Shown here piece by piece: positions 43,789-49,050 of a DNA stretch of 64,000 nt (positions within the stretch are counted from its first letter, which is position 1; every line of letters starts with the position of its first letter). The DNA lies in the NCBI RefSeq assembly GCF_017641085.1, contig NZ_JAEPPI010000001.1, positions 496,001-560,000 on the forward strand, read 5' to 3'. Below the pieces are notes generated by a model. That model saw only the letters and a list, made by a program, of their open reading frames with translations. It was not told the origin of the DNA and ran no database searches. This stretch comes from Gracilimonas sp. (GTDB lineage Bacteria > Bacteroidota > Rhodothermia > Balneolales > Balneolaceae). Position numbers and translations under genes: made by a program.

Positions 43789-46761
43789 ATGTCCATGAGG
43801 AATACTATTCTGCTAATTTTTACACTATCGTTGATTTCTATCAGTGAAATTTCCCAGGCACAGACAACCTTGCTTTCAGATGATTTTGAAGCTGGCAATT
43901 TAAATTCCTGGGTTGATGATTCCACGAATCACTGGGCTGCATCAACAAGTTCACCTATAAATGGTTCGTACTCAATGAAACATGCCTTGAGTAGCGAGGA
44001 GAACGAAAGTTATATTTACAGCTCAATATCCTCCGGAGATTTGTCTACAAAGGTGACAACCTGGCAATTCAATTTAAATAACGGAAGTTGGGATCCATCG
44101 GGTTCAAATTTTTTCGGTGTTGGCATTTTTGGAGATGAAGAGTATGTAATGAGTAGTACTTACAATGGATACGTTGTAGGTATAAATTTTAATGGTATTT
44201 CCGACATCCTGACCCTTTATAAGGTTACTAATGGTTCATATAGTGCAATTATAAGCACTCTATTTGATTGGGGGTCAGGTGATTTAATTGGTATTGAAGT
44301 TGAGAGAAGTAGCTCAGGAATTTGGAGTCTGTCGTATGATACAGACGGCGATTTTGATAATCTAACTTTAGGAGGATTAGCAACTGATACTGATCATACA
44401 ACTTTCTCTTATGTTACTGTCTATTTCGAATATACGAGTACAAGAGCAGGGGAGTTATGGGTCGATGATTTTTCAGTTGAACAGGAACTTGAGAACGCAA
44501 AGGCTGAACCTTCCAGTCATGCAACTTCATTTACGGCCACAGGGTCGATTAAGAGAATTGATTTAAGCTGGACCGATGCTTTAGGAACTACACTGCCGGA
44601 TGGATACTTAGTTAAAGCAAGTGATATGGATAATGTATCAGACCCAACAGACGGGACAGCTGAATCAGATGACTCAGATTTATCAGATGGAGCAGGGGCG
44701 TTGAATGTATTATATGCTGAAGGATCGACTTCTTTCACCGGTTTGGATGAAACGACCACCTACTACTTTAAGATTTATCCTTATACAAATTCAGGTTCGG
44801 ATATTGATTATAAAACAGATGGAACGGTTCCTGAAGATGATGCTACCACTTTAGAAACTCCGGATATTATTTTTAATGAAGTTTTAGCTGATCCGGATGG
44901 TACCAGCGGGGATGCAAACGGGGATGGTATTGTAGATACCGATGATGATGAATTTATAGAATTGGTCAATTATGGGGCTACGGATATAGACATCAGTAAT
45001 TGGGTTTTTTCTGATAACTCTACGGACAGGTACACGTTTCCTTCTTCAACAACACTTAAGGCGTTGCAAGCGGCGGTAATATTCGGAGGAGGAACACCGA
45101 CAGGAGATTTTGGCAATAGCATTGTTGATTCCACATCTTCACTGGGGTTGAATAATACAGGTGAAACGATCACTCTGAAAAATGGATCAGGAATTGAGAT
45201 TATTAGTTTAACATATGGTTCAGAAGCTAACAACGATGAATCAATTACAAGAAGTCCTGATTTAACGGGTAGTTTTGCACAGCACGAAACCGCCGATACA
45301 GATGATGCTTCTTCTTTTTCTCCCGGAACCCGAATTGATGGTACGTATTTTCAGCCTTCTGTGGAAATAACGGGCAATGCTGGGTGGCGTCTGCTTTCCT
45401 TGCCGATTGAAGATGGAACCGTAGCCGATATATCTGACAATACGGCCGTTCAGGGTATTTCAGGTGGTGATAACGCAGGTGCAGATCCAAACTTATTTAT
45501 CAACCCGGCTTATGACGGTTCTGACCAATCGGATTATATCACCCCCACCAATACAACTACTCCATGGGGAGACGGATTGGGTTTTATCCTTTATTTCTTC
45601 GATAACTCCACAAATGGAAGTTCCCCATTACCGATTACCCTGGATGCATTTGGTAATGCCCCTGATGCAGACGTGAATGTAACAATTTCCGATACCTGGA
45701 CGCTTGCCGGGAACCCATTCAACAGTAACCTTTCCATCGATGATATTTCAGGAAATGATAGCGGAAATGGGGTAAATGATGGTTTAACAAGTCCAATTTA
45801 TCTCTATGGTGCCTCGGGATGGGAAACAGTGAATCTTGGTAGCAGTAATGTTATAGGCGACTGGAGTGGGTTCTTCGTTCAAAGGTTTAGCAGCAGTACA
45901 ACTGAATTAACGATCCCAACTGCAGCTGCTACAACCGATGCAGTCAAGTTATCTAAATCAGGATCAGAAGATAATTTCCGGCAGATAAATTTGTTATTGG
46001 AAGCTCCGGGAAATTATTCTGACCGGACAACCAAGCTCTATTTCTCTGATCATTCTTCTGCAAACAAAGATGGATTTGATGGCGGTAAACTTTCACCACT
46101 GGATGGTGCACCTTTTCTGGCATTTGAAAACGATTTTGGGAACGGTAAAGAACTATTGGTTCAGGATGCACGACTCTTAGATCCAACAGAGGAACAACGT
46201 TATGAATTGGTGATTGCCGATGCCGGAATTTCTGGTTCCTATACCCTCAGCTGGCCTGAAATGAAGAACATCCCGGAGGATTGGGAGTTCACGCTGAATG
46301 ACTATGAAACAGGAGAATCGGTTACGATGGCACCGGAAACTTTGTATGAGTTTGAGGTTGAAGCGACTCAAAAACGAAAAGAGACTTCAGCTTCTCATTT
46401 TTCAGCAGCACAGGCTGAAACTGAAGAGGTAAACTCACGATTCTCTATTACGCTGAAAACCAGTACAACTACAAGTACGGAACAAGAGGATGAGCCTCAA
46501 ACTTTTGCTTTAAAACAAAATTATCCGAACCCGTTCAACCCAATTACAACAATTGAATATAGCGTGTCGAAGTCAGTGCCTGTTACTTTAACGGTGTATA
46601 ATGTAATGGGGCAGCAAGTTGCTATTCTTGTTAATGAAACAAAACCGGAGGGTACATACCGGGTGAGTTGGGATGCCGCCGATATGGCAAGTGGGATATA
46701 TCATTATCGCCTGCAGGCCGAAAGCCAGGTGATGATTCGCCAAATGACTCTAATTAAATAA
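43789..46761 (+). CDS. Large secreted type IX cargo protein with lamin-tail domain
   Basis: A 990-aa protein starting at ATG 43789 (a second ATG is two codons on), with a signal peptide ending SQAQ (about 25). Domains in order: a concanavalin-like sandwich (about 28-235), an FN3-like segment (about 240-350; TTYYFKIYPYTNSGSD), a lamin-tail domain (about 360-480; FNEVLADPDGT, DDDEFIELVNYGA), a module B (about 520-720; ITGNAGWRLLSLPIEDG), a module A (about 725-860; FRQINLLLEAPG, LVQDARLLDP, GSYTLSW) and a C-terminal type A sorting domain (about 902-990; QNYPNPFNPITTIEY, GTYRVSWDA). It is exported by Sec, then by type IX secretion. Modules A and B recur in the gene at 47-49 kb. Confidence 0.85.
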   Translation: MSMRNTILLIFTLSLISISEISQAQTTLLSDDFEAGNLNSWVDDSTNHWAASTSSPINGSYSMKHALSSEENESYIYSSISSGDLSTKVTTWQFNLNNGSWDPSGSNFFGVGIFGDEEYVMSSTYNGYVVGINFNGISDILTLYKVTNGSYSAIISTLFDWGSGDLIGIEVERSSSGIWSLSYDTDGDFDNLTLGGLATDTDHTTFSYVTVYFEYTSTRAGELWVDDFSVEQELENAKAEPSSHATSFTATGSIKRIDLSWTDALGTTLPDGYLVKASDMDNVSDPTDGTAESDDSDLSDGAGALNVLYAEGSTSFTGLDETTTYYFKIYPYTNSGSDIDYKTDGTVPEDDATTLETPDIIFNEVLADPDGTSGDANGDGIVDTDDDEFIELVNYGATDIDISNWVFSDNSTDRYTFPSSTTLKALQAAVIFGGGTPTGDFGNSIVDSTSSLGLNNTGETITLKNGSGIEIISLTYGSEANNDESITRSPDLTGSFAQHETADTDDASSFSPGTRIDGTYFQPSVEITGNAGWRLLSLPIEDGTVADISDNTAVQGISGGDNAGADPNLFINPAYDGSDQSDYITPTNTTTPWGDGLGFILYFFDNSTNGSSPLPITLDAFGNAPDADVNVTISDTWTLAGNPFNSNLSIDDISGNDSGNGVNDGLTSPIYLYGASGWETVNLGSSNVIGDWSGFFVQRFSSSTTELTIPTAAATTDAVKLSKSGSEDNFRQINLLLEAPGNYSDRTTKLYFSDHSSANKDGFDGGKLSPLDGAPFLAFENDFGNGKELLVQDARLLDPTEEQRYELVIADAGISGSYTLSWPEMKNIPEDWEFTLNDYETGESVTMAPETLYEFEVEATQKRKETSASHFSAAQAETEEVNSRFSITLKTSTTTSTEQEDEPQTFALKQNYPNPFNPITTIEYSVSKSVPVTLTVYNVMGQQVAILVNETKPEGTYRVSWDAADMASGIYHYRLQAESQVMIRQMTLIK

Positions 46762-46838
46762 ATTATTCATGATGAATTACGGATGTTGATTGCTTCTGAG
46801 CTTCAGCATTTATCGTCTTAAATTCAAAATTTCAGATT

Positions 46839-47042
46839 ATGAAAACCCTCATTTATATCTTCATTACAATTGTTTTTTTACTTGCCTTATCAGTTATTGT
46901 GCATGCTCAGCCCGGTTTACCAGCCAACCCAAGTCAGGCACCAATTGACGGAGGACTTGGCTTATTGGCCGCTGCCGGCGGAGGCTATGCGCTCAAGAAA
47001 TTACGCGATCGCAAAAAGAGGCAAGAGGAATCAGGGTTATAA
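46839..47042 (+). CDS. Small PID-CTERM protein
   Basis: A 67-aa protein that is almost only a signal peptide (MKTLIYIFITIVFLLALSVI, cleaved near VHAQ) followed by PGLPANPSQAPIDGGLG (about 26-42), a second hydrophobic stretch (LLAAAGGGYALKKL) and a basic tail (RDRKKRQ). The APIDGG motif plus hydrophobic helix plus positive tail is the PID-CTERM sorting arrangement of Bacteroidota. It lies between two modular type IX cargo genes and has its own terminator, so it is expressed separately. Its role and processing enzyme are unknown here. Confidence 0.8.
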   Translation: MKTLIYIFITIVFLLALSVIVHAQPGLPANPSQAPIDGGLGLLAAAGGGYALKKLRDRKKRQEESGL

Positions 47043-47069
47043 AAACCGGTTACATTTAATAAAGTCATC

Positions 47070-47098
47070 AGGTGCTCAACATCGGGCACCTTTTTTAT
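47070..47098 (+). terminator. Rho-independent terminator after the PID-CTERM gene
   Basis: GGTGCTC (47071-47077) and GGGCACC (47084-47090) form a 7-bp stem with one G-U pair, a 6-nt loop AACATC and a T-run (47091-47096). It sits 28 bases past the stop. Confidence 0.8.
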
Positions 47099-47112
47099 AT
47101 AAACCAAATTCT

Positions 47113-49050
47113 TTGCCGTTGATCGGTCATCATATACATAGTATCAATCTGCTTTTCTTCTTGATTGGGGTATTTTTCAGTCCGGCAGCGGTTGCTCAAA
47201 GTGAAAGTATCACCTACCGGGAAATCTCACTGAAACTGGTGGCGTCCAACGGAGTCGAAGATGTCAGCAACAAGCTCTACTTTCATGCCAACGGATCGGA
47301 AGGAAAAGATGGATACGATGGTGCAAAGCTGGCTCCGATTTCATCAGCTGATCCCTATTTGTTTTTTCTGCAAGACTTTGGCAGTGGCAGCGAGCGCCTG
47401 GTTCAGGATGCCCGGAATTTATACCCCGATACGGTGCAGGTCTATGACCTGGAAATGGAAGATGCCGGTTTTTCCGGTGAGTTCACGATCAGCTGGGCTG
47501 GCTTTAAAAATATTTCGAGTCTTTGGAAGCTGGATTTTATTGATGAGGATGAAGATACAACCATAATTATGGCAGAAGACTCAAGCTATTCATTTACAAG
47601 CAGCCGGAATTTTAGAATCAGCATTGAGCCCATTGCCTCCCGGGTTGAAATTACCGGCGAGGCCGGGTGGAGGGTGTTGTCTTTTCCGGTGAAGGATGCG
47701 GCGGTAACAGAAATCATGGATGACACGGCTGTTCAGGGAATTGCCGGCGGGGAGAATGAAGCCGCCGATCCAAACATTTACATCAATCCTGCTTCCAACG
47801 GCACGGCGGGGAACGGGTATCTTGTTCCAGAGAATATTTATACCCCATGGGGAGATGGACTGGGATTTATTGCCTACTTTTTTGATAATAACGTGAATGG
47901 AAGTACCGAGCTTCCCCTTATGCTTGACGCTTCCGGCCCCGAACCTTCCTCAGATGTAATTGTGGACGTCAGCAGTTCATTCACCCTTATCGGAAATCCC
48001 TTTATGAGTAACATCAAGCTTGATGACATCGAGGGAAATGGCAGCGGGGGTGTGAATGGTGGATTAAAAAGTCCGCTCTACTTTTATGATTCCAATGGCT
48101 TGAATACGGTTAACTTTGGAACCGAAACGGTTGTAAGCAGTTGGGCCGGCTTTTTTGCCGAAAGAAATGACAGTTCCACAACCCAGATTACCATCCCGAC
48201 TTCAGCAAAAACTTCCGATACGGCAAATGCCTATTACTTCTCGAAAAGTAGAAATAAGACGTTTAGACAAATCGAGCTTCAACTGGAGGAACCAAACGGA
48301 CAGAAAGATATTTCCAATAAGTTGTTTTTCAGTCCGCAATCATCCGATCAGCCGGACGCATTTGACGGAAGTAAAATGATTCCCTTTGATGGAAGCCCGT
48401 ACCTAAGTTTTATCAGAACCCGCAACGACTACCGGTACGATTTGCTGGTGCAGGACGCAAGGGCAATGAATCCCTCTGAACATCAAAAGTATGAACTTGC
48501 AGTTTTTGGTGGCGGAATAAGCGGAACCTATACCTTGCGATGGCATAAATTTTACAACATACCGGAGTATTGGGATTTCACCCTGATTGATTATGAAACC
48601 GGAACTTCGCTGCTAATGGAAGAGGAACAGTCTTACTTCTTTGAGGTAAAGGCCGATGGGAAGAAAAGCTATACAAGCGTACTTAAATCTCCGGTATTTC
48701 CTCCGGCTGTTGTAGAACCATCTCCCCGCTTTGGCATTTTATTGAACACTACGAATTCCGTAAGTACTGAAAAGAAAGACAAGGTTGATCAATTTAGTTT
48801 AGATCAGAATTATCCGAATCCTTTCAACCCGGTAACTCATATTCAATATACACTAAAGGAAGCTGCCCCGGTTTCACTCACGGTATTTAATGTGATGGGA
48901 CAGAAAGTCCATAAATTAGAGGATAGCCCAAAACCAGCCGGCACTTATACTATTTCTTGGAATGCGGATGGAATGGCCGGTGGAATTTACTATTATCGCC
49001 TGAAGGCGGGAGACGAAGTTATCACCCGTAAAATGACACTATTAAAATAG
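47113..49050 (+). CDS. Modular secreted type IX cargo protein (A-B-A architecture)
   Basis: About 645 aa from a TTG at 47113 (TTG at 47119 is the alternative). The longer upstream frame overlaps the PID-CTERM gene and is not used. The signal peptide ends AAVAQ. Domain order is module A (about 35-175; LVQDARNLYP, FTISWAG), module B (about 175-370; ITGEAGWRVLSFPVKDAA, DTAVQGIAGGEN), module A again (about 375-520; LLVQDARAMNP, GTYTLRW) and a type A sorting domain (about 555-645; QNYPNPFNPVTHIQY, GTYTISWNADG). Secreted by type IX. Modules are shared with the 990-aa gene upstream. Function unknown. Confidence 0.8.
   Translation: MPLIGHHIHSINLLFFLIGVFFSPAAVAQSESITYREISLKLVASNGVEDVSNKLYFHANGSEGKDGYDGAKLAPISSADPYLFFLQDFGSGSERLVQDARNLYPDTVQVYDLEMEDAGFSGEFTISWAGFKNISSLWKLDFIDEDEDTTIIMAEDSSYSFTSSRNFRISIEPIASRVEITGEAGWRVLSFPVKDAAVTEIMDDTAVQGIAGGENEAADPNIYINPASNGTAGNGYLVPENIYTPWGDGLGFIAYFFDNNVNGSTELPLMLDASGPEPSSDVIVDVSSSFTLIGNPFMSNIKLDDIEGNGSGGVNGGLKSPLYFYDSNGLNTVNFGTETVVSSWAGFFAERNDSSTTQITIPTSAKTSDTANAYYFSKSRNKTFRQIELQLEEPNGQKDISNKLFFSPQSSDQPDAFDGSKMIPFDGSPYLSFIRTRNDYRYDLLVQDARAMNPSEHQKYELAVFGGGISGTYTLRWHKFYNIPEYWDFTLIDYETGTSLLMEEEQSYFFEVKADGKKSYTSVLKSPVFPPAVVEPSPRFGILLNTTNSVSTEKKDKVDQFSLDQNYPNPFNPVTHIQYTLKEAAPVSLTVFNVMGQKVHKLEDSPKPAGTYTISWNADGMAGGIYYYRLKAGDEVITRKMTLLK

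Follow-up and report, generated by a model that had tools for sequence, protein, structure and literature searches.

A PID-CTERM peptide paired with cargos of the type IX secretion system

A 64,000 nucleotide (nt) stretch of Gracilimonas sp. DNA (contig NZ_JAEPPI010000001.1, positions 496,001 to 560,000; in the following, the window) encodes a micropeptide of the PID-CTERM family, 67 amino acids (aa) long, between two large cargo proteins of the type IX secretion system (T9SS). In the order Balneolales, the PID-CTERM genes we examined mostly adjoin T9SS cargos that share one region, module B followed by module A, ahead of the secretion tail. Cargo, PID-CTERM peptide and exosortase X (XrtX) very probably form a functional module. 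On balance, we favour the reading that a peptide of ~13 residues, released by the exosortase, serves the B-A-tailed cargos at the cell surface, which would join two sorting systems. The whole analysis consists of sequence comparison and structure prediction, and its statistics are not corrected for kinship.

PID-CTERM matches number 172 in the order, in 65 of 128 genomes, and 15 in the genus, in eight of ten genomes. From the better-scoring matches listed among the 172 we examined 55 loci, 15 from the genus and 40 from the rest of the order, and later another 20; a further 20 loci lie outside the order. The modules were detected with profile hidden Markov models (HMMs) that were seeded with the window's copies and then refined iteratively on every tail-bearing gene called in 75 PID-CTERM loci. 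In all 15 genus loci and in 34 of the 40 others (33 automatic, and L079 assigned manually owing to a spurious antisense open reading frame (ORF) in between), the PID-CTERM gene adjoins a T9SS-tail gene on the same strand. The cargo is located only upstream in 39 of these 49 loci, on both sides in six and only downstream in four, and the PID-CTERM gene stands directly downstream of a cargo in 45 of the 55. As a background, the tail is carried by 20 of 616 genes of the order that do not adjoin a PID-CTERM gene, and a same-strand upstream tail neighbour is found for 42 of 567 genes, including the genes behind PID-linked cargos.

The linkage prefers one subclass of cargo. Of the 55 PID-adjacent tail genes of the order, 53 have both modules, the remaining two being L079 (A only, split frame) and L035_3 (neither), vs four of 19 non-adjacent ones (Fisher 2.5e-10, uncorrected for kinship). 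For the later 20 loci the HMMs had been fixed beforehand, and the B coordinates had already been seen; here the fixed distance rule gave 17 adjacent loci, or 18 with the manual addition of L126, and every one had both modules. The loci L106 and L131 are probably identical and are to be counted once. The genome of the window contains 52 tail matches, six B matches and two PID-CTERM matches (E up to 10). There, 46 of the 52 tail matches are in genes that have no B match, and all three tail genes adjoining a PID-CTERM gene have B-A (p 0.0009). The pairing distinguishes six B-A cargos of this genome from its remaining T9SS cargos. Both PID-CTERM genes of this genome adjoin B-A cargos, the second (L015) lying 44 nt ahead of its cargo. 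A pattern scan for named relatives returned three, all from Balneolaceae/Balneolia.

A previous reading of the window, made from the sequence only, had suggested that the micropeptide may be a partner or anchor of the neighbouring surface proteins. The adjacency to a same-strand T9SS cargo in 49 of 55 order loci strongly supports a partner, and an anchor role is possible. The outcome that would have refuted that reading, modules unconnected with PID-CTERM genes, did not occur: a B and A cargo stands beside the peptide gene in 48 of the 55 and in 18 of the later 20 loci.

Cargo and PID-CTERM genes are separated by a median of 76.5 nt. A terminator-like site is present between them in one of 44 loci and after the PID-CTERM gene in seven of 44; among 1100 random windows, 13 have such a site. 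In the window, the scan found no terminator in the 77 nt between the gene of the 990-aa protein (cargo 1) and the PID-CTERM gene; a hairpin with a T run follows the latter, and a similar site occurs in L033 and L041 (scan) and in L032 (by eye). As the hairpin comes after the PID-CTERM gene and none lies between the two, cargo 1 and PID-CTERM look co-transcribed. This corrects the sequence-only reading, which gave the peptide gene a terminator of its own.

Exosortase X as the putative cognate enzyme

The genome of the window has one XrtX match (G000 C3:613960-614436; 202.2 bits, cut-off 170). There is usually one XrtX copy per genome, away from the cargo-PID locus; outside the order, the PID-CTERM gene adjoins XrtX in L085, L090 and L095. 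Cysteine, arginine and histidine, presumably the catalytic residues, were found at matching positions in the four XrtX copies that were read. In 83 near-complete genomes, PID-CTERM and XrtX occur together in 46, PID-CTERM only in two, XrtX only in nine (one broken) and neither in 26 (Fisher 8e-12, uncorrected for kinship). The median number of B matches per genome is five in the 55 genomes with XrtX vs one in the 28 without.

In two relatives, G006 and G008, the flanking HU and nitrilase genes adjoin and the entire cargo-PID-cargo cassette is absent at the syntenic site. G006 has neither XrtX nor PID-CTERM; G008 has no PID-CTERM and retains XrtX as fragments, one of which contains stop codons and covers residues 3-61. 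On a six-protein tree the two are not sisters (G008 groups with G005, 89/89; deeper forks are weak), which suggests two separate events. From these sequence patterns, XrtX would be the cognate enzyme of PID-CTERM.

A near-invariant proline-rich peptide

The 67-aa protein of the window exceeds the cut-off of the PID_CTERM model NF046080 (41.2 vs 26 bits) and shows the PID motif, a hydrophobic segment and a basic C-terminus. In an alignment of 53 order peptides, with L079 and L080 (PIGGG or PIGSG variant) left out, PIDGGL is invariant (53 of 53). Proline occupies positions -10, -7 and -4 in 51, 50 and 52 peptides, and glutamine position -2 in 49; the consensus of the conserved stretch is QPGLPxxPxQxPID. 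Alanine is found at -12, the likely signal-peptide site, in 31 of the 53, and the stretch from there to PID comprises ~13 residues. The ratio of nonsynonymous to synonymous substitution (dN/dS) of PID-CTERM is 0.09 between the window and L041, and 0.06, 0.16, 0.17 and 0.45 in four other pairs, some of the five being paralogues; in a sixth pair the synonymous sites were saturated. The peptide is nearly identical beside very different cargos.

Several related proteins were seen in other settings. In two genomes of the same taxonomic class but outside the order, the T9SS shuttle gene porV is followed, after 135 and 289 nt, by the gene of a longer PID-CTERM protein (172 and 162 aa; L102:8580-9098 and L104:8623-9111). 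Two further peptides (L092:8950-9132 and L096:8816-9136) have no adjoining cargo and the same neighbours in two genomes, on one side an isoprenyl diphosphate synthase-like gene (family match for L092 only) and on the other what we take to resemble a riboflavin synthase gene. L089:9015-11936 is an ORF of 973 aa for an MSEP-CTERM protein (TIGR04286, 5e-223); as its end segment exceeds the PID_CTERM cut-off, the model also catches other sorting tails. At L124:8745-8930 (minus strand), 55 nt after a B-A cargo, a 61-aa ORF ends in the proline-rich APPMLPNAPEQVS; it bears a slight likeness to the PID peptide, without signal peptide or C-terminal anchor, and its genome has no PID-CTERM and no XrtX match.

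The B-A region and related systems

B-A has homologous regions in RemA (6e-26) and RemZ (4e-25) of Flavobacterium johnsoniae, by profile match over ~280 positions. Both proteins are adhesins and type A T9SS cargos, and in both the region likewise lies just ahead of the tail. No Pfam family covers B-A: none matched the window copy, and two families matched one stray member each among 63. In a fold search with a B-A-tail model, the VIA-align rows fell mostly on the tail (model 381-471) and the best Foldseek rows had no whole-length match. B-A alone gave no Foldseek match at E <=0.001 and no VIA-align row with Z >=5, a negative of limited weight, since the RemZ structure is well resolved in its tail only.

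Both large proteins of the window are T9SS cargos, as the sequence-only reading had proposed: by sequence, their tails pass the curated TIGR04183 cut-off (34 and 41 vs 23 bits), and PorV of the T9SS machinery is encoded in the same genome (296 bits vs 250). According to the available part of one source, the gene of a type B cargo is commonly followed at once by that of its cognate SprF-like protein, and type A cargos all use PorV (PMC12618676). The arrangement described here resembles that of SprB and SprF in that a cargo gene is directly followed by the gene of its own partner. In contrast to SprB/SprF, the tails are of type A, i.e. those of PorV users, and the partner is a 67-aa peptide with a single anchor that is not PorP/SprF-like; no PorP/SprF-like match was found in it with Pfam and NCBIfam up to E 1.

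F. johnsoniae also offers a comparison for the exosortase. In an excerpt of PMC10936215, mutants in xrtF, porV, porU, porZ and sprA form much less biofilm and no zorbs, and the XrtF substrates are described as not known. XrtF, likewise an exosortase of the Bacteroidota, takes part in surface colonisation and, as far as that excerpt goes, its loss gives a phenotype like that of T9SS mutants. XrtF and the XrtX copy of the window's genome belong to different exosortase families, the latter reaching 83.6 bits with the XrtF model (cut-off 90). The accessible text of PMC7468200 speculates that VimA-related proteins, which are connected with the T9SS linking sugar, might also make the compound that is joined to exosortase targets; the genes described here do not figure in it.

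PID-CTERM (NF046080) and exosortase X (NF046081) are curated NCBIfam families, and the peptide and enzyme reported here pass both models. What distinguishes the present case is that the peptide so often accompanies B-A cargos and that the substrate consists of little besides signal, anchor and ~13 residues; the comparison was made by model names, and the NCBI descriptions may already note part of the pairing. In the open-access literature, judged partly by titles and abstract starts, we found no description of a link between PID-CTERM/XrtX and T9SS cargos, and no open-access paper using the term 'PID-CTERM' was found. The components belong to known kinds, and in the literature covered it is their pairing that appears new. 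The pairing bears on what exosortase substrates do in Bacteroidota. Placing an XrtX micropeptide next to RemA-type cargos links exosortase and T9SS sorting and suggests that they cooperate.

Proposed mechanism and alternative explanations

In the mechanism we propose, cargo and PID-CTERM genes would be co-transcribed and the PID-CTERM precursor would be held in the inner membrane. There XrtX may cut it near PID/GG, freeing or transferring a short proline-rich peptide, and the cargo would leave separately via the T9SS translocon. The peptide, QPGLPANPSQAPID, is a candidate ligand of B-A; it would act on the B-A stalk common to the cargos, by docking or with the stalk as acceptor, and might thereby keep the cargo on the cell surface or aid its maturation there. 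By analogy, this role would resemble that of the downstream SprF-like shuttle of type B cargos, with an unrelated partner. Docking on B-A, or its use as acceptor, is put forward tentatively as the simplest guess, because the peptide and B-A are what the pairs share. That XrtX releases or transfers the near-invariant stretch of ~13 residues as a dedicated ligand, tag or anchor for the RemA-type B-A stalk is a possibility we hold with similar reserve. B-A would then be the probable receptor region, and the vague question of what such a sorting peptide does becomes one of single-gene tests. If true, exosortase X would gain a function, and type A substrates, all described as relying on PorV in the available part of PMC12618676, would be served by a cargo-specific accessory.

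A number of observations weigh against a peptide dedicated to these cargos. Outside the order, the PID-CTERM gene lies beside a same-strand tail gene in only ten of 20 loci (nine automatic, L103 by hand), and the preference for B and A is weak there (six of ten adjacent vs three of seven non-adjacent tail genes). Of the ten PID-CTERM genes outside the order without a cargo, three adjoin XrtX, two PorV (L102, L104), one belongs to the MSEP-CTERM protein and four have none of these. Within the order, five of the 55 (L069, L072, L073, L081, L082) and two of the later 20 (L130, L133) are not beside a cargo; L077 lies at a contig end, where adjacency cannot be judged. Conversely, many cargos lack the peptide gene. 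Module B is found in 107 of 128 order genomes; of the 40 B matches of the genus, 19 have an adjoining PID-CTERM gene and 21 do not, and three of the six in the window's genome also lack one. Among the 83 genomes, the nine with XrtX and no PID-CTERM (one XrtX broken) and the two with the reverse do not fit either.

As a check for divergent PID-CTERM genes, 12 B-cargo loci were taken from PID-less genomes, of which six (L113-L118) have an XrtX match. Contrary to expectation, only one relic was found, beside the B-A cargo of one of these six: L113 (G022), from another genus, has an intact B-A cargo followed by a decayed PID-CTERM gene at L113:10212-10400, and its genome retains exosortase X. In L114 and L122, of that same genus, a related cargo is intact and no PID-CTERM gene was seen. 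Hence, the cargo can outlive the peptide.

Such cargos without a peptide, together with a mature peptide that is almost unchanged beside all cargos, could also be accommodated if the PID-CTERM peptides served a general XrtX-dependent surface or exopolysaccharide function and never touched the cargo or B-A. The operons would then be shared because attaching cells need both this function and adhesins. The tie between exosortase and surface colonisation in F. johnsoniae, where the xrtF and T9SS mutants are alike in the excerpt of PMC10936215, is in line with this. We nevertheless regard co-regulation alone as unlikely, since it leaves the preference for the B-A subclass unexplained: the contrast between adjacent and non-adjacent tail genes of the order (53 of 55 vs four of 19) would have no reason, nor would the choice of B-A cargos in a genome where 46 of 52 tail matches are in genes without a B match.

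The adjacency could further be inherited from one ancestral pair of B-A cargo and PID-CTERM that was copied many times, and not be kept by function. On this point, a tree of 79 B-A regions is informative, in which 58 rows were labelled linked, including L065_7 and L066_3, which were labelled by hand, and the named L106 and L107. Linkage clusters on it (11 changes vs a shuffled mean of 18.8; none of 500 shuffles as low): the larger clade of 29 that contains the window has 28 linked rows and one orphan, and the remainder 30 linked, 19 orphan and one relic. The two cargos of the window, moreover, resemble a tandem duplicate. Simple inheritance is nevertheless very unlikely, as the cargo is only downstream of the PID-CTERM gene in L015, L057, L066 and L084 of the order and is likewise downstream in L101 outside it and in L143. 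The link is also found across several families of the order and extends into other orders, dN/dS of PID-CTERM is at most 0.17 in four of six pairs, and PID-CTERM and XrtX are gained or lost together.

Probable duplication of the B-A unit

The module content given in the sequence-only reading was reproduced: A occurs once in the 990-aa and twice in the 645-aa protein (cargo 2), B once in each, with the orders B-A and A-B-A. Over their last 472 aa the two cargos are 52% identical (E 1e-159, far beyond chance). Module B is 58% identical between them, the module A copies of cargo 2 are 53% and 41% identical to that of cargo 1, and the extra module A aligns at E 1e-27. In the tree, both cargos belong to the same clade, whose eight rows come from four genomes of the genus and whose Shimodaira-Hasegawa-like approximate likelihood ratio test (SH-aLRT) value is 89; this points to tandem duplication with a change in unit number. 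The sequences thus suggest that the window cargos are tandem duplicates.

All 53 PID-adjacent order cargos that have both modules carry A after B and the tail after A, with the architectures BA, ABA and BABA, the last in L064. B-A therefore appears, at the level of sequence, to behave as a single unit ahead of the secretion tail. The predicted structure, in which B-A packs as one rigid unit (predicted local distance difference test 92.0, predicted template modelling score 0.90), is in agreement with this. By the simplest route, A-B-A may be a doubled B-A unit, as known from L064, that has lost its first B. The shuffling of independent modules, by which the sequence-only reading had the surface proteins evolve, could account for the differing orders in the window and for a tail gene of the same genome (L018) that has A and no B match even with the iterated HMMs, but it is hardly credible in view of the constant B-A-tail order, the rigid unit in the predicted model and the tandem-duplicate-like pair on the tree.

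Organisation of the locus

The positions of the three genes and of their features are given in Table 1; all three genes are on the forward strand, where the sequence-only reading had located them.

Table 1. Features of the cargo-PID-cargo locus in window coordinates. Cut-offs: TIGR04183 tail, 23 bits; PID_CTERM NF046080, 26 bits.
Feature	Position	Strand	Layout	Evidence
T9SS type A cargo 1, 990 aa	43789..46761	+	signal peptide, N-terminal domain, fn3-like stretch, LTD, B, A, type A tail	ORF list, Pfam and NCBIfam scans
LTD (lamin tail domain) of cargo 1, aa 357-477	44857..45219	+		Pfam PF00932, 8e-20
Module B of cargo 1, aa 525-715	45361..45933	+		alignment, HMM
Module A of cargo 1, aa 737-857	45997..46359	+		alignment, HMM
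Type A sorting tail of cargo 1, aa 912-984	46522..46740	+		TIGR04183 2.2e-08, 34 bits
PID-CTERM micropeptide, 67 aa	46839..47042	+	signal peptide, ~13-residue proline-rich stretch, PIDGG, hydrophobic segment, basic tail	NF046080 1e-10, 41.2 bits
Intrinsic-terminator-like hairpin and T run, 3' of the PID-CTERM gene	47070..47091	+		scan
T9SS type A cargo 2, 645 aa, TTG start	47113..49050	+	signal peptide, A, B, A, type A tail	
Module A of cargo 2, first copy	47236..47598	+		HMM 4e-37
Module B of cargo 2	47644..48213	+		alignment, HMM
Module A of cargo 2, second copy	48283..48648	+		HMM 2e-37
Type A sorting tail of cargo 2, aa 567-641	48811..49035	+		TIGR04183 1.4e-10, 41 bits

In cargo 1, the fn3 match reaches 22 bits and so falls short of the cut-off (25), and the signal peptide was judged by eye. 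For cargo 2, a second TTG at 47119 matches TTGATC of the relatives L032 and L033 in a by-eye alignment.

Two minor observations concern the reading frames of the cargos. In another genome, a PID-less B-module cargo (G005 C14:257219-257863) has an in-frame TGA. In the window, the frame of cargo 2 runs open upstream through the PID-CTERM gene, giving a 726-aa ORF from 46870 (upstream part 46870-47112). The open frame recurs in the close relative L041 and might mislead gene callers; it is probably due to chance.

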